Source of the DNA: Prostheceraeus crozeri | Lineage: Eukaryota; Platyhelminthes; Polycladida; Euryleptidae | Reading direction: 5' to 3' | Assembly: GCA_907163375.1 (NCBI GenBank) | Contig: CAJQUW010009212.1 | Location: forward strand, 49,620 to 113,619 | Length of the DNA stretch: 64,000 bases | Shown: in pieces, positions 4,592 to 58,437 of the stretch | Position numbering within the stretch: the stretch's first letter is position 1 | Layout of the letters: each line of letters opens with the position of its first letter | The notes under the pieces: generated by a model | Databases searched by the model: none | Told to the model about the DNA's origin: nothing | Seen by the model: only the letters and a program-made list of their open reading frames with translations | Program-made: the position numbers and the translations under genes

Positions 4592-5862
4592 TGTTACAGC
4601 TGCAGAGGTGCACAGCAGGTATCCTAGTAAAAATGTGATTCTGTGAGCTACCTCGTGTTAGCATAAATTTCACTTTGCAACTTCTATAAAGAAACGTTTT
4701 CTCATCTTATCTCTCAGCTGTCGTGTACTGCGTACTGTCCAGCACCATGATCGTCGACCAGTTCGAGCTCACGATTTTTGAGAATTAGTTCACTTGTATT
4801 CCTTTTTATTGAATGCTCATAGCTTGAGTTCTGATTTTTTAGGCAAGATCAGTGCAGGATGTGGAAATTATTGTCATACATCTCTATACTCCCGACGTGG
4901 AATCAGACAGTGAGCTCTTACATTCTCCGATTTGCAGAAAGGAGAAAGCCTGCTGAACAATAAGAAGCCGTCTCAATGACAAACGCTCATAGAAATCTGA
5001 CGCTATGACGTCAAAGGAACGAACATTTAAATTGTAGGCAATATTGCGTCGTGGGCATGTTTTGCTATTACAGCATCTCAACCATGGCGGTTCTTGGTCG
5101 CCGAAAGTAAGTAGACATCACACCTAGTCAGTGTGCTTTGTGGAGATTCAATATAGTTTTCATTTCTCCTTAAATACAAAATTATTCAGATGAAAGAGCT
5201 CAACTGTCTTGCAGCAATGATCGGCATCTATCACACGGTTCACGGGTTCTTCCTTATCGTGAAACAGTGCCATGTATCGTTGCCTGATCGAACACTTGAT
5301 TACTGCTGTAGTCCTGCTATAACTTAAAATTAGATATCTGTGAGCGCACTGATGTGTGCCAGCTTTCTGTATGTCTCCGGAGAGGGTTCACACGTCTGCC
5401 ATCTTTTGAATTGATACTCGAAAGGATTTACATTATCTACAAAACAATGATCTAAATTCTTTTAATCCAAAAAAATCGCAACGATCGGAGCATTTTAAGT
5501 TAATGAAAAGCAATCCACAATCGCTGAAGGACTATTTTTGCAATTCAACTAATATTATGAGGTTCTTTTTCTCCCCCACTAAGTAAGCTTCTTAATGTGC
5601 CATCACATTCATTCTGACGCATTTAAGCAATCTAATCTTGTTTAGAGTGGTCGCCCTAACTCGGCGATTAGAGAGCGCGAAAGCTGTGTGAAGCAATCAT
5701 CACGCATGTGCAGTGCGAGTAGAAACCACGAATAGAAGCTACTTGGACTGACTGCAATGCTTAACATCTCCTCTAATCTTTCACCAAAAAGGAAATCCTC
5801 AGAAAATAATGGTTATTTCTACATGTATGACAACAATAATAATCATCTATGACGAAACTTAC
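4592..5862. other. Spacer 3' of the first SLC46-like exon; no exon recognised
   Basis: On the minus strand this is where further exons of the SLC46-like gene would be expected. I looked for the conserved glycine-rich and WFPGF segments of the family and did not find them. On the plus strand, ACCATGGCGG at about 5079-5088 with GTAAGT at 5107-5112 could be a tiny first exon, but nothing supports it further. Confidence 0.4.
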
Positions 5863-6964
5863 TGAGGAATAGAGCAATGGACGTCCTGGAAAAGCCAAAC
5901 ATGATGTCCATTGCTAAGCATGACGCAGTACCAATAATTGCAAGAGCTAGTGGAGTCATGCCAAGACATTTTGAAAACAAGGCTGTAGCGAAAAGCATCC
6001 CAATATTGAAGCAAAATATCCGAACACTCGAAGCAATTCCTAGGAGAACCGAGTCCCAGCAGAATGGTAGACCCATCTCATAAACATTTCTCAGTGTTCC
6101 AGTGTGAATTTGCAATTCAAAAATAAAGAAGCCAATTATTGCAAAAGCCATTGCTGCAGTATTGCGACCATCAGCAGTAAAAGCATTGAGAATTCTACGA
6201 ATCTGAAATTTTTCTATTGCTCGTTGACTTCTTCTTCGAGTAGACGGCAATATGAAGATAATATACAGAAAGTTCAAGATGGAAGCTAAAACTGCAAGTC
6301 CATACGGCCATTGATAAGACATATATCGAATCCAGAAACCTATACTGACTTCTGTTGCCGTCGCCATTATCATGAAAGCACATTCTGTTATTGTTATTCT
6401 TAGCGTGCGTTGTTCTGCGGTCGTGATGTCACAAATATAAGCAAAAACGCTCGCAAGAAGAAGCCCTTTTCCACCAGTGACTCCACTCAATACACCAGCA
6501 AGCACATGTACATAAATTGGCCAATTGAGAAACATTGCAACCGTGCTTGTAGCCATGCTAACGATATCTCCAACACATACAAAAGTCATTGCCAATTTTC
6601 GGCCCATGCGGTCTGTAATTGGTGAGATGAAAAGGATCACAATCAAAGATGGTATTCCGCTCGCAAGGTTGACATACAATACCCACATGGTTGTTAGTTC
6701 TTGAATTTGGTTTACTGTTTTCTTCTGGGCTTGTGAGGCTGTAGTCGAATTGTACTCAGAACATTTGAATGCCCGTGTTTGATTGCTAGATGTCAGATTA
6801 TACTGCAACCCAACTGCATAGTAAATGTACTGATTGAGAACTGTAAACTGGATGATGTGTGAGACTGCATAGAGAACCATCACTGGCTCCACTGTGATCC
6901 ATCTTGAAGGCACGTGGACACTGTCCGTATCTGCTATGATGTATTCCTTGTCGTCTCGACGCAT
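5863..6964 (-). CDS. SLC46-like solute transporter (major facilitator), large first exon
   Basis: The exon encodes 367 residues from ATG at 6964 plus one base, then reaches a GTAAGT donor whose first base is 5862. Features of the SLC46 family (proton-coupled folate transporter and relatives) are clear. These are a short cytosolic N-terminus, VEPVMVLY at the first membrane segment, and a luminal loop with N-glycosylation sites (NLTS, NQT, NST) and a pair of cysteines. The MFS motif TDRMGRK lies after the second segment, and FCWDSVLLG lies in the second half. About ten hydrophobic segments can be counted; the last two should lie on later exons. If splicing is ignored the frame runs nine further codons to a stop. 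The closest relative in the window is the exon at 16730-17834, with the same intron position and phase. The substrate is unknown. The missing 3' exons leave it open whether the gene works. Confidence 0.82.
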
Positions 6965-7300
6965 GATTAGAAGCGATTCACTCGGGAACTGACAATGACC
7001 ATGTGATATGGAAGCTCATTTTGAGCACTCCACGACTGGAGAGTGAGAATCACATGACGCAATATGGAACCCTTCAATTCAATGACGACTGTGTGTGACC
7101 GTTAACATTATTGATGCGGATCAAAGTATCTGCTATTCAGCTGGTCTGGCTGTAAAAGACTACAATTCACGTTTTCTAAAATGATGGTTCGGCCAACAGC
7201 ACATACTTATGCAGGGACCGAGAATCTTCTATCAGACAATATCAGAGAGAGCATGCACATTTAGGGAGATGCAGACTTGAGATTTTCGGCACAATGTCAT
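6965..7300. other. Upstream region of the first SLC46-like exon
   Basis: This is the 5' flank of the minus-strand gene and should hold its promoter and 5' untranslated region. No TATA box or other decisive element was recognised. Confidence 0.4.
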
Positions 7301-13150: not shown

Positions 13151-13353
13151 CTGCTACTTTTCTCTTCCATGAATAACACACAGCATTTATCTGTAACGCA
13201 CTTATGGCAGTCGATAGAACTCACGTGATCGATAAAAGCAATTTCCCCTGCTGTGAAGAGCCAGATGAAACCTAATTCGCTCTTACAGCATCCAATCACG
13301 CTTACGCTCTTTACACGGTTGACAGACAAATCTTAGTCATTTCTCATCGCAGG

Positions 13354-15070
13354 ATGCCTCGTACACGTAGGAGACGTTTTGTGTTGACGGCGACGGATGT
13401 ATTCCAGCTACTTGATGCCTATGATTCTGATGAGGATGGACTTGTTGATATTGACGATGAAGACATGGACTTCCTAACTGGAGATATACCAGCTCGAGAT
13501 GAGGAGCCAGTGGAAGTTGTGATTGATGACCCTGGTGTACCTATTCAAGAAAATACAGAAGATATCGCAATAACAATGGAAAATTGTGACTTCAGGTGGT
13601 CCAAACGATGTCCTCCAGTTGTCATTCCTGACCCTGACATAGGCCTCGGAAGGGTATTGATTCAATTTGGCGACGACTTTCCCTCTCCATTGGAAATCTT
13701 TGAGGAGGCTTGTCAGTTAGATGAACTGTTAGATCAAATCGTGATCCCTCTATACAATACTCAGAAAGGTGAACCGCTTGAAACATCAAGGGAGGAAATG
13801 AGAGCATTTATTGGAATTGTTTTTATTATGTCATACCATGTCTTGCCCAAGATTCGATTATATTGGACCCTCGATCCAGATGTCAATGTTCCCATTATTC
13901 CCAATGTAATGACTCGTGATCGATTTTTTGAAATACGGACTGCACTCCACTTCACCGATAGTGAAAATGCACCGGATAGAAATGATCCCACTTACGATAG
14001 AGCTTGGAAAATCCGACCTGTGATTACTCACTTCAACAAGGTTTTCTCAGCTAGTCTCGGTCCCAGCACACACCAAGCAGTTGATAAGAGAATGGTGAAG
14101 TTTGAGGGTCAAAGCTGCATGAAGCGTACATGAAGGATAAACCAATTGACCGTGGATTCAAACATTTATGCAGAAACTGCAGCCGAACTTGATATGTATT
14201 CGAATTTGATATTTACACCGGACGGAAGACGCATACCGAGGTTGGTCTTGCCGAAGGTTTCGTTCTCCAGCTCACTCAAAGCATAAAGGGACGAAATATT
14301 CGACTCTTCACAGACAACTTCTATACATCTCCATGTCTTTTCCTCAAACTAAAAGAAGATGGCATCTACGCTTGTGGAACAGTTTGTTCCAATCGTAAAG
14401 GCACTCCACAGGACTTCAAATCAAACAAAGAAATGAAGAGAGAAGACGCAGACTTCCGACATTCACAAGGTATTTATGCTGTGAAGTGGCAGGACAATCG
14501 ACCGGTTCATCTGCTTTCTACGATTGATGGCTCCGAAATGACTCACGCAAAAAGAAGGCAAAGAGGTCATCAGGAGAAGGTGGATGTTCCTTGCCCAAAT
14601 ATGGTCTACACGTACAACGACGGTATGAAAGGAACTGATTTGATGGACCAGAAGACCAAACCTTACTGTTTTGATAGGAAGGATCCGTTGAAATACTACA
14701 CGAAACCATTCTACGACTATCTAGACATGGCTATTGTTAATGCATTCATTATACAAGAAACCTTGGTTTCTGAGCGAGAAACTGAGAAAAGATGTGATTC
14801 AGGAGTCGACGTTGGATCCAAAGACTGATCGTCCAAAGACTCTCTTGGATTTTAGACGACGCCTGGCCTCAGATCTCATCGGATCCTTCACTTCACGCTC
14901 ATCTCTGCCCGACCAGCACAGGTAAGACCACTGATAAGAAATCAGTTTCACGAGATAGTAATGGTGGAATCAAGGGGGCGCTGTCATTGGTGCTATCATA
15001 CTGAAAAGGCAGATAGAAAAGCTCATGTGAAGTGCTCAACCTGTAATCTGTTTCTTTGTTTGACTAAAAC
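13354..15070 (+). pseudogene. piggyBac-type transposase, broken
   Basis: The first frame (13354-14133) starts at a good ATG with an acidic N-terminus and reaches the first catalytic Asp in AVDKRMVKFEG. A one-base loss near 14126 shifts the frame. Reading continues through YMKDKPIDRGFK, an in-frame TGA near 14189, and LFTDNFYTSP with the second Asp. YNDGMKGTDLMDQ near 14613-14651 supplies the third Asp region. A second shift near 14775 leads to LDFRRRLASDLIG. The last piece (14961-15065) shows the Cys/His-rich RCHWC...CSTCNLFLCL zinc-binding tail of the family. Total length near 570 codons matches an ordinary piggyBac transposase. At least two frameshifts and one stop make it inactive. Its 3' end is interrupted by the TIR element that begins at 15122. 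Confidence 0.88.
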
Positions 15071-16461: not shown

Positions 16462-16729
16462 CTGTCGACTCACTGTGCTGGAAGGTGTGAGAGGGGGAGT
16501 CAACGTAGGGGAAAGGAATCGATTGCCCGCTAACGTGACAATTTCTATTACTCATTTTTGACAAAAAAGACCGATTGAGTTAATTCGTGGTGTTGAATTT
16601 CAGCATACTAATACTCAATTGCTCATTCTACGGCCTGTGAAGCTGGATTGGTAAGTTATCAATAACGTATATATGGAAATTATTAGTTAGGAATGCTTTG
16701 CAGATAAAAAATGCCTTTCAGAAACTTAC
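16462..16729. other. Short spacer 3' of the second SLC46-like exon
   Basis: Only 270 bp separate the TIR element from the exon donor, so any following exon of this minus-strand gene must lie beyond the element. No exon was recognised here. Confidence 0.4.
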
Positions 16730-17834
16730 TGCAGAACAGGACAACGGAGTTTGGCGCCAGACCAATCATTACTTTTGATGCTCCGGATGAAACGACACCG
16801 ATGATTGCAATAAGAAGAGGAGGCATTTCTAACCATTTTGAGAAGACCACAGCTGCGAAGAGCATTCCAATGTCGAGGAAGAATAAGTTAGCACTACCAT
16901 AATATCCTATCAGGACAGAGTCCCAACAGAATGGAAGACCAAGTTCATATTCGTTCAATACAGCTTTTGCCATTCCTTGAATACAAAAAAGGAAAAATCC
17001 GCCTATTACAAATGTCATTGCTGATGTACTTCTTCCTCTGGCAGTAAAAGCTCGAAAGATTCGCATTATTTGAAACTTCTCTGTCGAATTGGAACATTTT
17101 CCTCTCGACTCCGGTAAGAAAAAGATAATGTAAAGTAAATCAAGAACTGTTGCAACGGCTGCAAAAGCATATGGCCATTGATAAGGCATGTGCTTTATCC
17201 AAAGTCCAACTCCAAACTCAGACGCTACTCCCACAATGCCAAAGCAACATTCCACTATAGTGATGCGCAATGCACGTTGTTTGGGAGTTGTGATATCTCC
17301 TAAATACGAGAATACAGCAGCAAGAAGAAATGCTGAAGAGCCAGTGAAGCCATAAAAGACGTTGGTAATCATCAAAACGTATATTGGCCAATTCAAGAAC
17401 ATGGCCAATGTGTTCACCGCCAGTTTAGTTATTTCTCCAATGCATACTATGATCATGGCCCATTTACGGCCCTTTCTATCTGTCAAAGGCGCAGCAAAAG
17501 GGAGGACTATCATTGTAGGAATGGTATACGCAAGATCAATGTACATTGACCAACTGGCAGTCATCTCCTGCAGTTCATCCACAGTATTCTTTTGAGATCC
17601 ATCCTCCGATGTATTTGCAGAACACTGAAATGCCCTAGTTTGATTGACTGATGTCAGATTGTATTGTCTTCCAACACCGAAATAAAGATATTGATAGAAA
17701 ACTGGCACTTGCACAAACATAGAGATGGCAAAGAGCAGAGCAACAGGCTCAACCGTTATCCATCTTGAAGAAGCGACAGATTGTTCCTCTATCTCTTCCA
17801 CGTCTTCCAATATCGGTTTCTTTTCGTCGTCCAT
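16730..17834 (-). CDS. SLC46-like solute transporter (major facilitator), large first exon
   Basis: ATG at 17834 opens 368 codons plus one base, ending at a GTAAGT donor (first base 16729). An acidic N-terminus leads into SSRWITVEPVALLF. A luminal loop follows with NLTS, NQT and NTS glycosylation sites and conserved cysteines. LTDRKGRKWAM is the MFS loop motif, LGDITTPKQRALRI follows segment 5, and LGLPFCWDSVLIG matches the SLC46 signature in the second half. Roughly half the residues agree with the exon at 5863-6964, and both stop after the same residue in phase 1, so they are recent paralogs. Family members are proton-driven importers of folate-like or conjugated small molecules at plasma or lysosomal membranes. 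The substrate here cannot be told. The last two membrane segments are missing and their exons were not found between this exon and the next gene. Confidence 0.84.
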
Positions 17835-18990
17835 CGATCAGTGTTGATCCACTGTGATGAAAACAATTAATGTTCAAGTATCACATGAGAGAGCACAACT
17901 TGTGACAACAAAATTCAACTTTTTATGTACTTCAACGCCAGCCCTATTGTGATGACATCACACAACAGATTACATGATTTCGATTACATACTAACCGCTT
18001 TGTGAATTTTCCAGGGTGTCCATCAGCACAGTCTACTTCGAGAGACCTGTGGAGCTGTGGTGGGAGCAGGACATGACTTTGGGTCGATGAAAGTGATGTC
18101 GGAACGGAAACAGGCTTTGGGTCATATTACTAGTTGACATGTAGAGCGAAAAGCTAAGTGTGCCGCACCTTCAGAGCTGGAACTGATTGCTGCACCTTCA
18201 GATTTCGGCCGGTGTAACAGTTTATTTCTAATCCCTGACAAAATTTACTCCCCCAGTAAATTTAGCCTATCCGATGCAGTTTGACTCGATCCTGATCTAT
18301 CGTTCATTGTTATCCACAAAACAAAAAAACAGTCAGTAATCAGTATTGTTTTTATGATTTTACATTATGTGAAGTTAGCGGACTTAATTTTTTGTTATTT
18401 TTGGAACTTGTTTTCTACTATTCATTTCCTTCAATTCTCATCCCATCAATCCATCTTCCTAATAAAACTAAAATGAAATCTAATTCAGATTCTTATCTAT
18501 CTCTAATCTATATTAGATATATAGTAAAAGAAAAGTCGTCAGATGCGCCGCGAAAAAGGGTATTAGTAGGAGAAATTTTTTGGAAGGGGGGGTAAAAAAT
18601 ATCTTTTACAAAATTGGGGGGGGGAGATGGCGGCGGTTAAAAAATAGACTGGCACAACGGGCCGCATCGATTCCAAAAATTATGTCCGGCCAGACCCGGA
18701 TGAATGTATTATCTGGGACCGGGTGAGACATTTTATCGTTTTGAGCAGTTTATCATCGTTACGGTAAATATCAATTACCTACGTTAGTTGAGTGTAATCG
18801 CCTTAAGAATCTAATTGTTGATAACATTATCGTATGCTGTAGGGTCTATGTACCATCTGTAAGTAAATTGATAATTGTCGAACAGTAAGGAGAATTTTCA
18901 AGCATTTGATGCAGTGAATTTTCATTTGATTTAAATGTTGCACATGCATAGCGCGTTTGTCTATCACAAATTAATTGGATCCTATTTGAT
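17835..18990. other. Upstream region and spacer
   Basis: The first few hundred bases are the 5' flank of the minus-strand transporter. Around 18580-18640 there are G-runs of seven and eight bases in otherwise AT-rich sequence. No gene was seen. Confidence 0.4.
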
Positions 18991-28720: not shown

Positions 28721-29061
28721 CAATCATGATCTGACTGTTCTCATCACTTTTTGTTGAATTGTCCAGGAACTCGCATTGTTCTGTCACAATTTTGTTTTGA
28801 TAACTGATAAGAAGTTTTTGATTGACACAAGTCTAGTTTTAATGAAGATATTTCCATGCATCAGGCCTGTGATTGCACATCCGTGGATTTGTGGGAGTGT
28901 GAGGAATTTTGTGGGATGGCTCGAAAATCAACTTTTTAAAGAATTTTTTGTTTTGCTCGAGAAAATAACTTCTGTCTAAACATTCTATTTCGATACAATT
29001 AAATATTGCAGCTTGAGGCATTAAAAACAGATTAATGAGAAAAGTGTGTTTCGATGACGAA

Positions 29062-30215
29062 TTAGCGTCTGTTGGATGAAGCACTTTCTGCAACAACTTC
29101 ATTTTGAGGGTTGGCCTGATCACCAAATGTCTGGTTGATCTCTTCCATATCTTCTTCGCCATTTTGTTTGACAAAATTATGTATAACGGCTGTTGCAATA
29201 ATTATGCGACAGCATCTCAATGGACGAAATCTAAGAGTATTCCTCAGACATTGGAATCGACTCTTCCAAACTCCAAATAATCTCTCGACACTATTTCTTG
29301 TCGATATATGTGCTCTGTTATATCGAAGTTCGGCTGGTGTAGATGGTCTCAACAAGGGAGTCAGCACATAAGGCGTACAGGCATATCCATTATCGCCAAG
29401 AAGATATCCATTTATCAAATCAGATTCGAATTTGCTATTCAACGAGCAATTATTCCATATTCTCGAGTCATGGGTTGCACCCTTCCATCGCACCACTAGA
29501 TTTGAAAAAATGCAAATCGTGACTGTTAACAGCCTGCACGTTTATCGAAAAATAGCCTTTGCGGCAGCGATACTCCTCATAATCTTGTGAGGCAGGCTTA
29601 ATAATTGGGATGTGTGTTCCATCAATGCATCCCACCATTCCTGAAAGACAAAAGTAATACACAATTATTATAAGAACTTTAGTTAGGCCCTTGGCTGACA
29701 TAGGGCAGTTGTGATATATTCAATATAATCAATACATGCATGTAAGTACAATAAACAATAAAGATAAACTTACCGGGGAAATGTGCAATGTCATAGAAGC
29801 CTTTCTTCATATCAAAAAACGCTTGATTGAGTGAAGGAAATTTTATGTATTCACTTCTGAGGTCGGCTACATGCTTTGAGACTCGGTGAACAATGCGGCT
29901 GACGCTTGAATCTCTGATGTTAAATATATCCCCAACTGAACGTAAGAAACTGCCATCAGCATAGAATGGGAGTGCTACCAAAATTTGCAACATAGGAGAG
30001 AGTAAATAATTGCCTGCTCTTGAGGCCTCTATGGAATCACGCAACAGATCGTGTAGCTTGATGGCGCAAGCTTTGCCCATTCGGAAGCGATCTCAAAACT
30101 CCTCGTCCGTGTACTGTAACAGCGGATCGATTGGCTTCAATTGCATCAAGGCAGGAGTACCATGATTAGTGTCTCCTTCACCATCCATGTAGTCCATGTA
30201 TTCCATCAGATCCAT
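29062..30215 (-). pseudogene. Harbinger nuclease (DDE), two exons, two small lesions
   Basis: Exon 1 is 30215-29774, starting MDLMEYMDYMDGEGD. It is broken by TGA at 30095-30093, where codon 41 falls between YTDEEF and DRFRMGKA. It holds the helix-turn-helix-like region SVGDIFNIRDSSVSRIVHRV. Exon 2 is 29640-29062 and completes FPGMVGCIDGTHIPIIKPAS with the first Asp. A run of six T at about 29511 shifts the frame by one. Then come RWKGATHDSRIW (second Asp), YLLGDNGYAC and ISTRNSVERLFGVWKSRF (Glu). The intron is GT-AG, 133 bp, phase 1. Length near 339 residues is normal for the family. With two point lesions this is a very young relic, or an assembly with base errors. Confidence 0.9.
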
Positions 30216-33958: not shown

Positions 33959-36900
33959 TCAAAATACGTCAAGCGGCTCTGTCTTCACAAAATTCATTAC
34001 ATAATGAAGCACATGTAGGTATGAAGGAAGCTTGCCGACACATGTGCGCGAAAAAGCAATTATCACACGGTGCGAGCAAAGGGAAGTTAGAGGAAAAAGA
34101 TCGTAGAGTAAGTTTTTCTCGTTTAATAGTCCGTGAAATAACTTAAGAGCACTGTTTCTTGCCGAATGTTCAACGGAGTGAAATACGAGCACTCACATTC
34201 AGCACCACATAGTATGCGATGCGAACGACGCCTCACCCTTTCCAACTTCTGAGTTCTGATATAAACCAACAACCAATGGTGTATTGTAGTAGAACGAATG
34301 CGTTGTAAAGGGCGATTAAGTCACTGGTGTAAAGGTATTTCTTTACACGTTTTATGCTGTAGAATTGTAGATTCGCTTTCTTGCACAGATTTGGAATGTG
34401 ATTATCCCAAGTAAGTTTTTCGTTACATATCACTCCAAGTATAGATAACTATTTCTCGAAAAACACATCTTGTGGAGGAGATATCATCACGTTTGGCTTC
34501 TTGATGATCATCAACTTCGTTTTCTGCTTGTTCAAGCGAAGGCCATTTAAGGAACACCAATCATGAGCGCCGTTGATCTCAGACTCCGCGATACAATTCA
34601 AATCAGAGTTGAGATAGACAAGTAACACAATGACAACATCATCAGTGTATTTTGAAAACAAGATGTAAGGATACTTTGGCTGAAGGGAGCTCATGCATGC
34701 ACAAAATAAAAATGGAGACATCTTTTGGTACTTCTAGGTTTTATCCCCCCACTCCTTCAAAATTCGATAAATCATGTTATACTGAACTGATCGCTATGAA
34801 ACTTGAGGAGTGCCTAGAAATGGATATTTTCTTTCTACAAACCAAATTTCATTCAAATTGGATAAATAGTTGCTGCGCTACAGTCGATAACGTAATTCAA
34901 GAAAGAACTACACGTTTATTCCAATAGATATATTGTCTGATCTCTCACTGAAGAGCCCAGTAATCAACAATGTGCAGCAGAATTTTGTCAAATGGGTCAG
35001 TGCCGTGAATGCGTGTGCGCCACATAAACTCGCACAGATAGGAATCGAGCATTCCGTGATGCGTGCCAAAATGCTTCTTGTTTCGGAACTTAGCTGCTCT
35101 CCACATCCGCTCTACGTTTTGAGTTCCGACGATCAAGGTCAACCATGGACAGTCATTTTAGAGGATTGGCATATTCTACGTTATCGACTGTAGCGCAGCA
35201 ACTATTTATCCGATTTGAATGAAATTTGGTTTGTAGAGAGAAAATATCCATATCTAGACACTCCTCAAGTTTCATAGCGAGCAGTTCAGTATAACATGAT
35301 TTATCGAATTTTGAAGGAGTGGGGGGGATAAAACCTACAAGTACCCAACTTTCCACCTTGGGGTACATCAGATGTAACAGGAAGAAAAGAGCTCGTGCAT
35401 CCATTTTTCAGTCTAACTCTCTGTTCTCTCTTTTGCAGATAATTGAAACACCAAAGAATGAAGTTCCTGGGTAAAGATGCATCTACTAAGGATTTACATA
35501 AGAGGATAATCGAACGCTTTCGACAGATCAAGGGTAATGATCAAGACACATTTTCGAATTTGAATCATCGAGGATAGAAGTGATAAAGTCAAGTACGCGA
35601 ATGTTAGCATGAGTCGTAGAATGGAAAATTCGAAAGCCAAACTGATTCGGACCATATTTCGTGATAATTTCCTCCTTCACACTATTTAATACATGATCCT
35701 CAAGAACTTTGGAGAAAATAGGCAAAATTGAGATGGGCCGATAGTCACATATTGAAGGGGATTTGCACTTCGGTACTGGAGTTATATCTGCAGATTTCCA
35801 GCTGATCGGCACGGACTTAGCATCAATTGATAATGAAATCAGATGAGTCAATGGAGCAGAAAGTTCTGAATATGCTGTCTTAACAAATCTTGTGGGAATA
35901 CCGTCATTGTCAGTCGATTTCACGGCTTTAAGATTTTTAAATAGTTTCTGTTTTATTGACACTGATTTCAATTTCACAGTCCTTCTTGACTTCAGCTGGT
36001 AATTTTGTCACCTGTAGCTAGTCGAGAGAATTACTAAAATTGGAAGGAGATTGTATATTCACTGATTCTGCAAATTAGTTACCAAGCGGATAAGCATTCA
36101 TATTCTTGTTTTTAACTTTGTTTACAATTTTCCAGATGCCATTTGGTATTTCCTTTACATTTTGAACACAAGCTTTCTTAGCAGTTTCTATTTCTAATTT
36201 ACTTTCTCGCGATAATGTCGGTACAAAGGAAACTTGTTTTGACGATAAGCATCAAAGCGTAGATTTAGAAGATGCTTCACTTTTGATGAAGAAATGATGC
36301 TTCACTTTTCATACCGCTGAAGAAAATCTTTAAATTGCATAATATTGCTTTCCTGTAATCGAAGAATGTAGCATCACAAGCTTTGGCAGAAAAATTATTT
36401 AAACGAGAAGGGGGTTTGATGCTTGTAATGCAGTGATCTGATTTTCCAATTGGTGCCTCTACAGTCATTAGTAAAATACTTATTGCATTAGAAAAATACA
36501 GAGGTAAAAGGGATTTACTCAAAAGAATTTTATCCAAGATGGAATTTTGCAGAGTAGGACGGTTTACGATCTGACACAAATCGAGAGAGGTTTCTATTTC
36601 ATCAGTCTGAAAATGGTTTAGATCACCAGCAATAATGACATTGGAATTCGAAACATGATCGCACAAGTTCACGGCAAACATTAGTTGATGAAGTTTATGA
36701 GTAGATAACTGAGGAGGAATGTACACAATTAAGAAGACAATATCATAAGTCGACAAATGCAAACAAATAGAATCGAAAAGTTGGAAAGGGTTTACAGAAT
36801 CAACTACTATAGTAAGAAATTTCACGTACGCGCAAACACCTCCGCCGCGACGACCATCAGTGCGATCTTGCCGACAAATTGAATAATTCTGAATATAGAT

Positions 36901-36975
36901 TTCTTCATTATACATATTGCCATCTGACCACGCCTCACATAGAGCTATTATTTGTGGCGCACTTGAACATGCCAA
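33959..36975 (-). pseudogene. Non-LTR (LINE-type) retrotransposon, endonuclease and reverse transcriptase, broken
   Basis: Read leftward from 36975. The first piece is an AP-type endonuclease (36975-36277) with LCEAWSD, RRGGGVCAYVK, VIIAGDLNHF (the catalytic GD-N) and SDHCITSI. After a lesion-rich linker, the reverse transcriptase starts at 35977 with KAVKSTDNDGIPTRFVKTAY, ISWKSADITPVPK and CDYRPISILPIFSKVLE. It continues with FGFR and, at 35531-35370, LQKREQRVRLK and SDVPQGG. An inverted-repeat element (34735-35337) interrupts here. Beyond it come SPFLFCACMSSL and YTDDVVIVLL with the catalytic Asp pair, then NKQKTKLMII, LTWDNHI and a C-terminal block. Several frameshifts and stops are present. 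The domain set fits the Jockey/CR1/L2 group. No 3' repeat tail was identified. Confidence 0.87.
34735..35337. mobile_element. Inverted-repeat element inserted in the LINE reverse transcriptase
   Basis: The arms are 34735 to about 34905 and about 35165-35337, inverted copies for roughly 170 bp. They start TAGGTTTTATCCCCCCACTC and end with the inverse. The middle 260 bp is unique and noncoding. On the minus strand the flanking reverse transcriptase reads PQGG on one side and SPFLFCA on the other, which proves insertion into that gene. No perfect target duplication was seen. Confidence 0.8.
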
Positions 36976-37197
36976 AATAGCGAGATCATCAAAATTTGGC
37001 CGGAGAGATTGTACATTTGATAAAATAATATGAAGTACCGGAGGTTTAAACGCAAAATCACTCAGTGAAAATTTGCCACATCCTTCCTCAAAATCACCTG
37101 TCCTCTATACATGATTACATCCTCCCCTAAGCTTTTCCGCGCCTTATATTCTTCTCTTGTGAATCTTAATTCCTTTTGTTGTTCAATTGGGAGATCA
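36976..37197. other. Spacer between LINE and TIR element
   Basis: Probably includes the 5' part of the LINE on the minus strand, without a clear frame. Confidence 0.35.
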
Positions 37198-47983: not shown

Positions 47984-48879
47984 AGTCACGCACGATCTTG
48001 CGTGAAAACTCATTCATATTTACTATCTTAGCACGACGCACATGCACGAGCATGATGTAAACAATAGACAGTCCTACATGAATCCATCATCATAGGCATG
48101 CAGCGGGTAATTTTTCATCAGATAGCAAAATAACTTTCAATGGAATGTCTCCACCTCCTGAGAATTATTACATAAATGCAGGCCTGTAGTGAGTGTTGAC
48201 GACCAATAACTAGTGATGAAAATTTTCCTTGGAAAATTATGGAAAAAATAGGAAAATTTTTGAAATTTTTGAAAATTTTGATTTTTTTGATAGGTCCTAT
48301 AATTTGAGCGCTTCCACTGCCGAGGCAGTTACGTACCAATAAATTGGGTCTGAAACTCTTGATTTCATCATTATTTCGATTAAAGCGATCGTAGCACTAC
48401 GATTTCCGTCCGCGGATTTTTGAACATTCCTTTGCCACCAGTGGCTTGCGCCATTTTGTTAGCATTTTTAATTATCACACAGACACCGTTTGGGATAACG
48501 TGAATCTTGCTTTACAATAGGGGTATAATTTCATGCAATGTGAAAGATCTGGAGCAAAAATAATATACATCATCTTGGAGTTTGCTAATTGTTAGCTTCA
48601 AAGTTAAGCTTTAGTATGCAGCGTTGATCATAGTGATAAAAATTCTCCATGTGCTGCTGAACATGTGAAGTATAAGCACACAGTCCACGCAGCATTCATG
48701 AGTGACCATGGAAGATATAAAGACTGAAAAATCTTGAGATATTTGAAAACTAAAGATATCTGTGATGAGTAAAAGAATATCTATGATTTATAGCTTCTAT
48801 CTTTTGGCTTAGTGTCCGATATCTTCGTTGATACACATCCTCCATTTTCTAGTTCAGATGGCTCAGATAGTTCCAAATC
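47984..48879. other. Spacer
   Basis: No gene. A stretch of GAAAATTTT and its inverse near 48215-48290 is a low-complexity AT-rich run. Confidence 0.4.
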
Positions 48880-50110
48880 GATTTCTGATCTGCCCAAATG
48901 AATTTCAGATATGATCCAGATGAATTGGAGATCTCCAGTTGAATTTAAGATCTTTTCAAAGTTGAGTTTCTGACAGATATCTGAAATTCAGCTAGAGAAA
49001 TCTGAAATCCATAATGTCTGAAATTCATTTGGAAAGATCTGAAATAGACATGGAAAAGGTGCAGTTGCAGGTTCCAAAAGTTAACATACAGGGATGATAG
49101 AGAAGTTTTCGGTCTTTGAATATTACATAATCTCTTCAAACGACTATAAAAAGTCTCCAAAACAAAGGAAAAAACGCCAATCACTGAAAAGTAAATTGGA
49201 AAATTTTCCATTTGCATCACTACCAATAACACCAAAAAGACGCACATGAAAGCTGGGACTACGCCGTTTAAGCAGTTTGCATGCGTAGATCTTGCAATGA
49301 ATGGAAATTTCAACACAGTAAGAAATCAATGCTTTTTAGTAGATTATGTTGTGGATAAAGCTGTTCCGACATGAAACATCTTCCTTGGCCGAAAATATTC
49401 TGTGCAGAATTTTCGCTTTGCAGTTCTTCACTCAAGCAATTTTCAAGTGAGAATAATCTCCACAAAAATTTATTAATTGTTCCGCATTGCACGAATTCAG
49501 TAATGAGCTCGAAGTACCAATGCAGCCTATCGATCAATTCGGAATGCTGAATTTAACCAATCTGATAACAATTGCGTCTAGCATGAATCCATTTGAATAA
49601 AGGAGAAAAGACTACACCTTTTTCACATGTATTTCAGTCAGTGTGTTTGATTTTCGAAAACTAAATTGTATATCAGAATACGTCAAATGAATTTAAATTA
49701 ATTCAAATGTATTTCAGATTATGTAAAATTTTATTTTCGAAATTATAAAAATGCGCAAAATGAATTTCAGAATTGCAAATTGTTTTACAGAAAGCGTAAA
49801 ATGAATTTCAAAAGGTTAAATTGAATTTCAGAATCGTAAATTGAATTTTGAATTCATCAAATGAATTTCAGAAAAGAATATTTCAATTTCCGAAATATCT
49901 GTACATCAAGAAATGTATTTCAGAAACATAAATTGAATTTCCGATTACGTAGCTTGGAATATAGAAACGTGAATTGAATTTTTGATAATGAGAATTGATT
50001 TTCCGATTATGTGAATTATTTATTGGATGACACCATTTAATTGTGGAAAATGTAATTTGAATTTCAGATAATAAGAATTTAATTTCAGAAATGAACGAGA
50101 TGTACTGTTC
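48880..50110. repeat. Left array of GAATTTCAGA repeats
   Basis: Between about 49630 and 50100 the word AAATGAATTTCAGAA and close variants recur about every 27-30 bp, near 16-18 times. Sparser copies in both orientations reach back to 48880. The mirror-image array TTTTCTGAAATACATTT occupies 53400-53860. The two arrays flank the RING/HTH/DDE gene and may be its long subterminal repeats. Confidence 0.7.
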
Positions 50111-50956
50111 TAGCAATGGGTTGCAAGAAGTTGAGTCATGTTTGGATCGGCAAAGTCTTTGGTATCAATTGCCACGGCATGACTTGAAAGTTAATCGCCA
50201 CTTTCTCTTTTAGAGATTCATACCCGGCATAACAAAATGTAATGTAGCAACAATGAAAAAATGAACTCTATCAACCTTTATACACAAAGTGATCAGTTTG
50301 AGTGCAAACAATTGAGATAAAAATTTGTTCTCTTTTGATTATTATATGAAAAGCTTAGCGGATTATCTTTAATTTTTACATGCACATTATTAGAAATGAA
50401 AGAGGTGTTCGCAAAATGAATAAAGAAAAAACACGAATTTCCATCAAGTAATTTGTTACAAAAATTATCACATTCCAACCCGTACGTCCTCCATGTTCAC
50501 TGCTACAGAATGAAATGATGGAGTATGCTGTGCTGCTTGTGAACAGTCAGCATTTGTCACTGTTGCGACGGCATCATCAATCAGTCCTTCCAAATACATA
50601 TTCCTATCGAACTTTTCACGTGAGACTTTATTTTCGTCCAGATGCTCTCAACGGGATTCAACATTGGGCTGTATGGTGCCAATCGAACTAGATCTGCCTG
50701 AGAATGAAGGAATATCATGTCAAGGACCTATGACATGTGGCGTTATCACACACAACCACGAGATCCTCTAGAGAGTTTCCCCTTTGTACCCACAGGTTCA
50801 GGGCTTCCTCCATCCATTTCTTGGCCGCCATTGAAGTAAAGCTGCCACGTCGTTTGGTAATGTGCAGCATCCCTGCTGAAGTCATAGCTCCAATTAGATG
50901 AACGTTCGGTCCTAGAAATGAAAAGAATAGGAAAATCAATGAGAAATTTAGTCATA

Positions 50957-52359
50957 CAGTATTGTGCAAATTAATGTGAACAAAAGTAAAAATACATGAC
51001 TTCCAGCATGATTGAATTTTATTTTCAATGTAAAATGAAATATTGTCTTTCAATACATAATGTGGCCACCCTTGGCCTTCAGCAATGCTGAGACACGACT
51101 TGGCATTGAATCGACCAATTTTTCGCACACTGATGAGATCTTTTCATCATGGAACCATACCTTAATAAGAGCTGCTATCATCTTTTGTTTCGATGAGCAA
51201 TCAATCTTTCTCAGTTGCGCTTTGCAGATATGCCACAAATTTTCGATCGGAGATACATCAGGGGAGTTGCCCGGCCAATCGAGGACGCAAATAGTGTTCT
51301 CTTCAAGACAAGCTTTGGCTTTTCGGCTTGTATGGCACGGTGCCAAATTTTGTTGGAAAATTGCATTCGGCGTTCGTTCCAACTCAGAGACAATCCGAGT
51401 TTCAATCAAATGAACATATCGATCGGAATTCATCATCCCCTCGATTGGAATGAGACATCCGGGTCCCTTGTATGAGAAGCACCCCAAAACATTTGCTTTG
51501 GTGGATGCTTGAATGACTGGTTCATGTGTGTCCGGTACTTCGTCGAACAAACTGAGAATGATATCCTTTTGCTTCAAAGTGACACTCGTCTGAAGAGACA
51601 ACTCGACGCCAATCTTCGACGGTCCAGTTCTTATAACGCTTGGCCCACTTCAAACGGGTTCTCCTCATTTTAACTGTTAATATGGATTTTTTAAGTGGTC
51701 GACGAGCTTTCCTCCCAACGGCGAGCAACCGCCGACGCACAGTTGAGCTGTCAATAGATACCCCGGCATGTTCAATTTCGACCTTAAGCTCATTACTTGT
51801 CATTCTTGGGTTGAGTCTGCTCATCCTGATAATCTTTGAATCATCTCGTGGCGTTGTATTCTTTTTTCTTCCACATCTACCAATGCGTCGCGGTTGAAGG
51901 CTGTCCGTATTTTGATGCAATTTCAAAATATTATTCACTGCACCAAGCGAGACCGAGCATTCAGATACGATAGCGCGTTGAGTCATTTTTGTGTACTGTC
52001 TGAGTGTCACAATTTTGCTACGCGTCTCTGGTGAGATGCACATGCTTACTGAGAAAGATAAAATGTGATTAGTGACAAAAGTAGCAAGTTCAAATTCAAA
52101 ATTCAAATTCCACCCAAGTTTTGTGAGAAAGGCCAAAATTTGCTATTTTGTGGAATTTGAACTTTTGAATTCAAAATCAATTATCTGCGTCAATGTTGCA
52201 TTGAACACCTACGTCTGGCAATGAAAAGGTCAAATGTTAATATCTATGCAAGTACACGAGTCATTCTATTTATGTAAGATAGAATAAAGCAAGTCAAACA
52301 ACATTAAGTGATAACATACGAAATATGTCCTTTTGTTCATATCAATTTGCACAATACTG
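50957..52359 (-). mobile_element. Tc1-like transposon nested in the intron
   Basis: CAGTATTGTGCAAATTAATG at the left and the near inverse CAATTTGCACAATACTG at the right form terminal repeats of about 33 bp. TA flanks both sides (50955-50956 and 52360-52361). Length 1,403 bp is typical. The single gene on the minus strand is broken. The element lies wholly inside the intron of the RING/HTH/DDE gene and would leave splicing possible. Confidence 0.9.
51050..52043 (-). pseudogene. Tc1-type transposase, broken and lacking one catalytic Asp
   Basis: From ATG 52043: CISPETRSKIVTLRQYTKMT and a paired-type helix-turn-helix, GRCGRKKNTTPRDD as the AT-hook-like linker, then SSTVRRRLLAVGRKARRP. VVSSDECHFEAKG brings the first Asp. 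A one-base shift near 51535 changes frame to THEPVIQASTKANVLGCFSY. The second catalytic site reads FQQNLAPCH, where the family has Asp-Asn before Ala-Pro-Cys-His, so that Asp is gone. The Glu is kept in SPDVSPIENLWH. The end, KAKGGHIMY, is the usual C-terminus. Length near 330 residues fits the family. Inactive. Confidence 0.9.
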
Positions 52360-53339
52360 TAGATCATCAAGAATACAGTAAATAAAAGGCAAGTTTTTTT
52401 ACTCAAGAATGAAAATCGATCTACAAAATACTTCTAAGTACAGGATATGTAAATTGGGCATAATTTGCGACTCGGCAAAGAAAACAATAAAGGTAATTGT
52501 AAACTATTGTCCCTCTTCAAATTACATGTACATGTAAAAAATTGATACTTGATAGCATGAGTGCAACTTACCTCGTGAAGTTGGCCTGGTAGCCACTGCA
52601 CGTGCGCCTTGCCGGGAACGTCCACAATTTCGCCGACAAAAGAGGTTGAAATTCGTTTCATCGATCCATAATATTTGCCGACCATGTTGTATGTAGGAGT
52701 TGAGCCGGATAACATACTCTTTCCTAAGTTGTTTGTTTGAATCAGAGTTCATAGTCACCGGTTCCCAATGCATCATCTTCACCGTGAACATTCTGTTGCG
52801 GAGGTAGTTCGACACTGATGTTGTAGATATAGTGATGTGGGAGCTTGTAAAAATCTTGGCTTTCAGTTTAACCAAGGTTATGGAGCTATCCTGCTCGATC
52901 CACTGTAGCACTTGCTCTATTTGATCTTCAGTCAATATCCTAGGCTTGTTGCTACCTCTTTTTGTTCCGCTTATTTCTCCCGACCGTATCCAACTATAGG
53001 CAGTTTTGTAATTTACTCCAAATGTTTCGGCTAGAGTCTTCCAATCCTCGCCGCGATTAGAGCACTCGACTACTAATTCCCGATCTCTTGATGAAGCCGC
53101 TTTGTACTTTCGTCTTTTGAATTCTTCTGTATCTTCTACATCTTCCCGACACAACGGACAAAAGCGTTCTTCCATGGCAAGAATTGGTGCAGGACATTCC
53201 GAATGCAGTAGATGTAAGCAAGGATTCAGCCGCAAAACGGCCTTCCTCAGCATTGACATTTGACAAATCGCGCAATTCTCAGACACTTGCATTTCTAAGA
53301 CTGTGGACCATGTCAGTGATCTATGATTTATAGTCTATG

Positions 53340-53890
53340 GCAAAGGTAATGAGATCAAGTTGCTATCATCTGAAATTCAATTCACTTGTCAAACCATGCA
53401 ATGCCTCTCTGAGCGTCGGTCTGAAGATCAATTTCTGCTTTCTGAACTACATGTTCCGTTTTCTGAAATACATTTAACGTTTTCTGAAATTTAAGTTAGC
53501 TTTCTGTAATACAACTGATACTTTCTGAATTTCATTTGCTATTGATAAAATACATTTCATATTTTCCGAAATCCAACTGATATTTTACTATAATTTCTGA
53601 AATACATTTTATGAATCAAAAAATCATTTTGTGATATCTGAAATATAAATAACGTCATCTGATAGCCAATTTATGATATCTGATATCTAAGTTTTGAAAT
53701 TGAAATTGAAGTCATGTTTTCTGAAATTGAACTCAGCAATTCCAATTTTTGGATTCCATTCAATTCAATTTCCAATTTCAATCAACTCCAATTCATGTTT
53801 CGGAAAATTATTTTGTGTTCTCTGAAAATCAAGTCACATTTTGAAATCCATTTTTTATCATCGGAGATCAATCGCGCCTTTTAGGAAATA
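53340..53890. repeat. Right array of TTTCTGAAATAC repeats (inverse of the left array)
   Basis: TTTTCTGAAATACATTTAAC, TTTTCTGAAATTTAAG, TTTCTGAATTTCATTT and variants occur every 28-30 bp about 12-14 times between 53420 and 53840. Their orientation is the reverse of the main left array. Confidence 0.7.
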
Positions 53891-53897
53891 CATGTGA

Positions 53898-54220
53898 AAA
53901 AGACTAGAAGCATTTGAGATGTGGTGTTGGAGAAGAATGTTGGAAGAGAAAACCAAGCAATCAATGAAGAACTGCTGACAAAAGCGAATGAAACACGAAG
54001 ATTGCTGAATATCGTGAAACGGAGGAAGATCGAGTATTTCGGTCATATCCTAAGACACAACGAAATGTTGCGTGTGATGGTAGAAGGTAAAATCAATGTT
54101 GTAAAAGCGACAGGAAGACAAAAACGAATCTACACTGACGATATCAAGTACTGGACTCACACAAGGACGAGAGGAAATACCATCCGAAAGGCGATCTTAA
54201 AACATCTTCATGTGACATGA
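53898..54220 (+). pseudogene. C-terminal fragment of a LINE-type reverse transcriptase protein
   Basis: Starts in one frame with RLEAFEMWCWRRMLE and shifts to NEELLTKANETRRLLNIV, KRRKIEYFGHILRHNEML and GRQKRIYTDDIKYW before stopping at 54220. This block, with FGHILRH and GR-x-KR, is the standard tail of RTE-like and related retrotransposon proteins. The piece is 5'-truncated, as is usual for such insertions. It belongs to a different family from the element at 34-37 kb. Confidence 0.8.
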
Positions 54221-56783: not shown

Positions 56784-58437
56784 CAGTCCGTTTCATAAAA
56801 AGTGGATCATCCTAAAATTTTACTAAATAAAACATAAGTATGATACAGAAAGCATTTTTCTTGTTATTTCATGTCCCTAATATATTTAAATGTCCTTATA
56901 TAATCTGATAAGCTATGATACAGTAACGGTTCTTAAGAACCTAATATTTTGTGGCCCTACCCTTATTGTCAATGACATTACCAATTCGTCTAGGCATTGA
57001 TTCGATGATATCGTTGATTTTTGACTGATCTAACTTTCTCCACTCTCTTTTTAACAGTGACGTAAGTTGTGATACGCCATCTGTAGGTAGCAGTGAACGA
57101 CGAACGTTACGTTTTAGAATATTCCATACATTTTCTATGGGATTCAGATCAGGAGATCGAGCTGGCCAAGATAATGTCCTAAGCCCTAATTGAGACTTGC
57201 ATAAGTTGACTCTACTACTCCTGTGACACGTAGCATTATCATCCATAAATAACCAAGTCGATGGATCACCAAGTTGATCTGTCATTTGGCCAATATTCAT
57301 TCGTAAAACATTCACATAGCGTTCAGAATTCATGGTTCCTTGCTGCATGTGAAGTTCAGAGCGGCCATTGGTCCAAATGCTAGCCCAAATCAGTAGTCTC
57401 ACCACCTTGTACCCGGGGACAATGAAAATGTCTCGGAATTTCCTAATCAGATTTTATCCGTAATCTCAATCGACCATCACTATCCTTCAGACGGACTGAT
57501 GCCTCATCAGACCAGACAACCAGATCCCATTGATTTCGCCACTGACAATGACTCATTGCCCATCTGAGACGTCTTTTTGTATGCTGATCTGATAATTCGA
57601 TCTGAGAGGGCCTCTTACAGCTCTTGAAATTCGACTCAATAAGTCTTCTACGAATAGTGGACTTAGAAATAGACGAGTCTAGTGCAGTCATCTCAGTTAA
57701 CGAGAGACTTTGATCAACTTTAACAAATCTCAAAATAAGGCGGTCTCTACGTTTGGATGTTTTGCGTGGACGGCCAGAGCCCTCTTTACGACAGAGTCGA
57801 AAATCATCATTATGCCATCGATGCACATTTGTGTAAGGGACATTTAGTCGCTTGCTTGTAGCTCGCAAAGAAAACCCTAGTTCTAGCAAGGCTCACACTT
57901 TGCCTTTTGTGAATGCGATCTCGTTATTGTTCATTTGTGCTTTGTATTGTTTTCAACCGTTAAGAGATAGATTTCTAGCTGAAAGCAATCAGGAGTGCTG
58001 CCAACACCACCGCAACGAAGTCAGGAAGCTATGGAACATGAAGTCCAGTTAATCACATGTAGCAGTTACATTATTGTTGATGAATAATGGTGCTATACTG
58101 GCTCTGATTGACCAATTTTCTTTATTTTTGTTTTGCTTGATAGCTTTTGGCTTGTAGAACAACATATTACATAACAAAGGAAACAAATGTAATTTTATAA
58201 GAGTGAGGTATGATTTTGTGTAACATTGCTAAATGAAGAACAAATTATCTACTACTTTTTTATCTATAACAGGAAAACAACTCAATATTCATGCTTGAGA
58301 CTTTCAACAATGATATTAGTAAGCACAACTGACATATCTTCCAAATTTCAGAGAAATTCGTTCAAGTTTGGCGGAGTTAGACAAAGTTGAAGTTAAGGCG
58401 ATGTTTAAGGGTGATCCATTTTTTATGAAACAATCTG
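56784..58437 (-). mobile_element. Tc1/mariner-type transposon, second family
   Basis: CAGTCCGTTTCATAAAAAGT at 56784 and the inverse ACTTTTT-like end TTTTTTATGAAACAATCTG at 58437 form terminal repeats of about 33 bp. TA flanks both sides (56782-56783 and 58438-58439). Length 1,654 bp. One transposase gene on minus. Directly right of it lies a 612-bp hAT-type MITE. Confidence 0.88.
56941..57934 (-). pseudogene. Tc1-type (DD34E) transposase, two or three small lesions
   Basis: ATG at 57934 reads MNNNEIAFTKGKV, then an in-frame TGA, then ALLELGFSLRATSKRLNVPY with the first helix-turn-helix. SGRPRKTSKRRDRLIL is the GRPR linker, followed by STIRRRLIESNFK. VVWSDEASVRLKDSDGR gives the first Asp. A one-base shift near 57446 leads to RDIFIVPGYKVVRLLIW. 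Next come TWLFMDDNATCHRSS (second Asp), WPARSPDLNPIENVWNILK (Glu) and the terminal VIDNKGRATKY. All three catalytic residues survive. Length near 330 is normal. Confidence 0.9.

Follow-up and report, generated by a model that had tools for sequence, protein, structure and literature searches.

Within the window (the whole stretch of Prostheceraeus crozeri DNA analyzed here, 64,000 nucleotides in length) we identified a split and broken transposase gene enclosed by transposon ends, with a RING-H2 finger at the start of its first exon (Table 1). The earlier note had placed the feature at 50468..53292, which describes the coding part well, but the element itself is larger and extends to about the points where sister copies reaching the element ends cease to align, approximately 49607-49613 and 53900-53902. 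On the minus strand, a 240-codon exon (53292-52573) is open throughout and carries, all in the same frame, the RING-H2 pattern, the helix-turn-helix (HTH) motifs, and WIDETNF, as had been read from the letters alone. Both the C3H2C3 ligands and a Pfam zf-RING_2 score above the cut-off (32.6 bits against 27.3 for window exon 1) place the finger among RING-H2 domains. Its closest solved structures in the PDB are the RINGs of ARK2C/RNF165 and Arkadia (best E 1.8e-6), with ZNRF3 also among them; Arkadia/RNF165-type proteins, although alike in RING-H2 sequence, are host ligases without transposase parts. The HTH-like block also yields HTH matches, though below the Pfam cut-offs in the window copy, and the RING stands in front of this DNA-binding part rather than substituting for it. 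In exon 2, VVVCDNATCH is present and the Glu (NPVESIW) comes only after a break in the frame; this exon piece scores 21.0 bits against DDE_3, below the cut-off of 28.6. The damage near the 3' end is not the pair of one-base lesions first proposed: compared with sister copy L006 (417 of 429 aligned bases identical), the window has lost a single base near 50719 and a stretch of 40 near 50600. Because AlphaFold failed to model the window exon alone (mean pLDDT 32), the RING fold rests on sequence.

Table 1. Features of the RING transposon copy in the window.
Feature	Position	Strand	Basis or remark
Whole RING transposon copy	49615..53904	-	~4.29 kb including nested Tc1; sister alignments end there
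TA target duplication, left	49613..49614		sequence
TA target duplication, right	53905..53906		sequence; inward neighbor GTC where CACC expected
Left subterminal array, ATTTCAGA-type repeats	49631..50110	+	repeat spacing often ~20 or 40 bases
Exon 2: second Asp (VVVCDNATCH) and Glu (NPVESIW)	50468..50911	-	frame broken by two deletions
Intron, GT-AG, phase 1	50912..52571	-	enlarged by nested Tc1; sister introns
Nested Tc1-type element	50957..52359	-	inverted repeats and Pfam; own transposase frame-broken
Exon 1: RING, HTH motifs, first catalytic Asp (WIDETNF)	52572..53292	-	ORF, Pfam
RING-H2 finger C3H2C3, first to last ligand	53149..53274	-	Pfam, PDB relatives, alignment
Right subterminal array, inverted	53340..53885	-	repeat matches versus shuffles

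The splice proposed between 52571 and 50912 is borne out by relatives. Uninterrupted sister copies have a GT-AG intron of 254-257 bases at the matching position, in the L019 group the intron measures 82 bases (L019, L026, and L028) or 222 bases (L020), and because intronless homologues read straight through the same junction as SR-GPN, the splice to 50911 is correct. As far as coding capacity goes, the intronless subfamilies also exclude the suggestion that the RING exon belongs to a separate transcript. The 1.66-kb intron of the window copy is an intron of about 255 bases hit by a nested Tc1-type element, whose arms lie at 50955-50993 and 52323-52361. The insertion has TA on both sides in the window, L010 keeps the empty site GATGATC-TA-TGAC, and in the genome search the Tc1 edge is where RING-exon matches end and Tc1 matches begin.

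The ends of these elements are inverted and begin CACC[A/T]TTT..., with a TA target duplication for which C-TA-G is preferred. The window copy shows the terminal CACCTTTTTCACATGTATTTC from 49615, its opposite end being degenerate. Among the loci examined there are 81 distinct matches to CACCWTTTYY, 72 of them preceded by TA (by CTA in 69 of the 72); the remaining nine were judged by eye to be chance matches, subterminal repeats, or ends that have decayed. In the window subfamily, copies that extend to the element ends terminate at the same two positions; others are truncated or internally deleted. Further in, the ATTTCAGA arrays of the two arms face one another, with 12 matches of at most one mismatch on the left (shuffle mean 1.05, maximum 4) and 14 on the right (mean 1.44, maximum 6; 300 shuffles each). 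Since the RING-less L039 also has ATTTCAGA arrays, they belong to the wider family and not to the RING; the arms of L051 carry a different repeat. A short palindromic stretch with the ATTTCAGA motif (48871-49055) lies outside the element ends and may be a remnant or else a miniature derivative. One TA of an abundant host repeat has received copies from two or three RING subfamilies (L011, L017, L027, and L029, with a similar site in L019), the first four sharing the target letters GTTTGAC-TA-GAA[G/A]GGAAA or near. The empty target GTTTGACTAGAAGGGAAA occurs 6483 times in the genome with at most one mismatch, against 2 for the reversed control, and the flank of L029 is a repeat found also beside L005, L014, L017, and L019. 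This shared insertion TA suggests a strong target preference.

Elsewhere in the window lie a second, decayed Tc1-type transposase in two frames (56941-57892; HTH_Tnp_Tc3_2, DDE_3) and several other mobile-element remnants: a reverse transcriptase ORF (1252-2670; RVT_1), a DDE_Tnp_1_7 match (13276-14828) presumably of piggyBac type, a DDE_Tnp_4 match (28839-30092) that we take to be of Harbinger type, and an Exo_endo_phos match (36277-37104), presumably a LINE endonuclease. Two ORFs for major-facilitator transporters (5843-7015 and 16683-17837; Pfam MFS_1), similar in appearance and sharing a strand, are possibly a host gene pair. On a 100.7-kb contig of the assembly, locus L083 (G000:C6227:15700-17400) holds a mitochondrial-type cox1, either mitochondrial or a nuclear copy, that keeps one long frame if TGA is read as Trp. 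Reading AAA as Asn, ATA as Ile, and AGA as Ser presumably restores the usual residues, as would be expected under mitochondrial table 9 (flatworms, echinoderms).

Relatives were sought in the window's own assembly, a single animal genome of 2.05 Gb in 14,165 contigs. The protein search gave at least 153 matches, with the best 150 of 5167 candidates scored, and by hand count about 70 among the matches listed run through RING and HTH together (query residue <=8 to >=205). Counts were made on 82 loci, some of which overlap (L051 and L059 are one place) and from which L083 was left out. Eleven of these (10 distinct places) hold RING, HTH, D, D, and E in a single ORF; RING and HTH share a frame in 38/82, an HTH without an in-frame RING is present in another 38/82, and no HTH match was obtained by the expression used in 6/82. 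The RING lies in a different frame from the HTH in L043, L073, and L081, and none was found in L070, L072, and L049, the six-frame re-scan covering a part of the loci without an in-frame RING. By our own division there are at least eight RING-bearing subfamilies (window, L019, L029, L037, L050, L051, L058, and L081), L081 being represented by a broken copy alone and L058 being internally deleted. Near-full-length genome copies of the window subfamily are 93-96% identical in protein, and the subfamilies are 40-63% identical to one another, with the same domain order in one ORF. Four of the eight have intact one-exon RING-HTH-DDE ORFs of about 400 residues that score above the Pfam and NCBIfam cut-offs, so that the further copies in this order for which the earlier note had called do exist, including intact single-ORF proteins. 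The outcome it had named as refuting, copies lacking the RING, is seen in sister families and in decayed or truncated copies (L070, L072), but not in the RING subfamilies as such. In one RING copy, L071, the last zinc knuckle is tandemly repeated in frame (ATCALCRG repeats). A search of viral contigs and prokaryotic genomes confirmed no relatives.

These copies bear on two readings of the window locus. Transposons do capture host exons, and the arrangement might be a chance juxtaposition, either through capture of a RING exon at a single locus or through a distinct RING gene lying beside a transposase. We rejected this candidate on the single-ORF RING-HTH-DDE copies and give it next to no credence, as the same order recurs in one ORF across such divergent subfamilies with the zinc ligands conserved. 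Domestication, giving a host gene with both RING and transposase parts, would account for the intron and the host-like RING, and a single locus viewed alone does resemble a gene. This is nevertheless highly improbable: the locus belongs to a repeat family and is itself broken, being neither intact nor single, with near-identical sisters and with inverted ends and TA. The locus is a cut-and-paste DNA transposon of IS630-Tc1-mariner type that has decayed, and no domesticated gene. The transposase lineage with a RING that had been suggested for it is supported by multiple copies, ends with TA duplications, and intact single-ORF proteins.

The class of the transposase is indicated by several profiles. 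DDE_3 lies above its cut-off in eight of nine relatives, the ninth being an exon-1 piece, and the NCBIfam IS630 model scores 119-141 bits in 4 of 4 relatives (cut-off 100). In a profile comparison, matches were obtained to Sleeping Beauty (E 3.6e-6) and, weakly, to Mos1. HTH_28/HTH_23 and HTH_32 stretches precede the catalytic domain, HTH_32 being above its cut-off in L037, L039, and L045 and the other HTH models below theirs. The elements thus have the D, D, E domain, the HTHs before it, and the TA duplication with inverted ends that define the IS630-Tc1-mariner group, and resemble Tc1, Sleeping Beauty, mariner, pogo, and Sailor in HTHs, DDE_3 core, and TA duplication. They differ from these in adding a RING-H2 finger before the HTHs, subterminal repeat arrays, and, in two subfamilies, one intron. 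The spacing between the second Asp and the Glu, measured in the RING rows, is 32 residues (31 in L051 and L057), which agrees with none of DD34E Tc1, DD35E, DD36E, DD37E, and DD38E. A spacing of 32 (31 in L051) is absent from the families named in the accessible text of PMC8533490 and PMC8472432, and the term "DD32E" had no occurrence in the ten papers listed by a literature search on this transposase group.

The genome also contains RING-less sister families (the L039, L045, L048, L069, L074, and L080 groups), in which a six-frame scan of 17 loci found no RING pattern. They share the homologous HTH-DDE part with the RING elements, and the L039 group also shares the ends CACCATTTCC after TA and the ATTTCAGA arrays. 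Unlike the RING elements, those sister families with a Met have a protein that begins shortly before the HTH, and their spacing between second Asp and Glu is 33 or 35 (L048 not in the set), against 32 or 31 in the RING rows. In a tree built on the HTH-DDE part alone, one branch (89/89) splits 16 RING rows, which include L070 (RING lost) and L057 (one ligand missing), from 11 RING-less rows. With two Tc1 outgroups, 15 RING rows stay together (89/88), the fork that joins them to several RING-less branches being unresolved; the branch uniting the RING rows is not starred and its support is moderate, several rows being long or pieced together. The data neither support nor reject a clade that would hold every RING-less row (p-AU 0.319). 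The grouping of the RING rows is consistent with a single gain of the RING, which is the simplest reading of the tree.

At E <= 0.001, every row of the 14-row RING alignment has a zf-RING_2 match, as do 5 rows of an 11-row mixed alignment, in which five rows are RING-bearing. Across the 14 rows, which are related and so are not independent tests, seven of the eight zinc-ligand columns are invariant, and the eighth (Cys) is kept in 13, being lost only in L057. In RING codons 1-55, all eight between-subfamily pairs have pS of 0.75-0.93, near saturation, and pN of 0.24-0.46; because synonymous sites are saturated, dN/dS is not given for most pairs. As pN is higher in the RING than in the catalytic part in seven of the eight pairs, the RING is somewhat less constrained. 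Judged from these substitution patterns, the RING is clearly constrained, if slightly less so than the catalytic part. The two within-subfamily pairs have few changes and no clear constraint, as expected of copies drifting after insertion.

Fusions of a RING finger with a transposase have precedents. One is RAG1, the recombinase of antibody genes, a DDE enzyme that includes a RING E3 ligase. In the accessible text of PMC4411706, Chapaev groups and RAG1 are described as carrying RING fingers, that of RAG1 with ubiquitin ligase activity, and the RING finger and Chapa domains are said to occur in no other known transposable elements. Read strictly, this last statement is contradicted by the accessible parts of three other papers, in which a C-terminal cysteine-rich region of piggyBac is described as a RING finger motif match (PMC2533014), one Phytophthora Mutator-like element is tabulated with a C3HC4 RING finger (PMC6446971), and RING fingers are given for fly retrotransposon ORFs (PMC3630058). 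The corresponding domain of Paramecium PiggyMac does not fold as a canonical RING, according to the part of PMC8086355 available. All of these belong to other superfamilies, and the piggyBac finger is C-terminal, whereas that of our elements is N-terminal. Chapaev and RAG1 resemble our elements in having a RING finger and a DDE recombinase in one polypeptide, but probably belong to another catalytic family and have other accessory domains; DDE_3 and IS630 were the only catalytic models above cut-off in our elements. Among the open-licence papers listed, seen mostly as titles and abstracts, we found no report of a RING in an IS630-Tc1-mariner transposase, and an earlier description elsewhere, for example in Repbase, is possible.

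By our reading of the alignments, Arg directly follows the last ligand in seven of the eight subfamilies, a position we take to be the linchpin, and Ile/Val precedes the second ligand in all eight; L051 has Asp at the linchpin position. Ile/Val, Pro, and Arg, which we assume to be the E2-face positions, are retained in most subfamilies but not all, making the predicted E3 ligase activity likely rather than certain; the classical E2-contact Trp is absent. Ligase activity may have been lost in one branch. Other transposases have zinc modules with roles in multimerization or in DNA or protein contact, and the RING might be a structural module of this kind with no ligase activity. Conservation of the RING would fit any folded domain, L051 does without the linchpin Arg, and the piggyBac region is described, in the accessible text of PMC2533014, as a match to a RING protein-interaction motif. 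We consider a purely structural role rather unlikely, in view of the RING-H2 E3 ligases that are the best solved relatives (ARK2C, RNF165, Arkadia, and ZNRF3) and of the E2-face residues kept in most subfamilies.

Taken as a whole, the observations are probably best explained by an IS630-Tc1-mariner-type transposon that gained, once, an N-terminal RING-H2 finger acting as an E3. In such an element, the HTHs would bind the terminal or subterminal repeats and the DDE core would cut and insert the element, while the RING would recruit a host E2 and make the transposase an E3 ubiquitin ligase with itself or neighboring chromatin proteins of the host as its substrates. Ubiquitination might then tune the level of transposase or its access. 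The putative source of the finger is an RNF111/RNF165-like RING-H2 protein of the host, gained in a family whose other branches are without a RING.

To our knowledge, why a transposase would need a RING E3 ligase is unsettled. We tentatively put forward the possibility that a large branch of the IS630-Tc1-mariner group has its own transposase-fused E3 ligase, evolved independently of RAG1 and Chapaev, with ubiquitin controlling transposase dose or changing silencing or host chromatin where the element inserts. A second RING-DDE fusion, in a different transposase family and found in several subfamilies that share one genome with RING-less sisters, offers a natural comparison for the question posed by RAG1, and the RING extends the domain repertoire of a transposon group that is among the most widespread.
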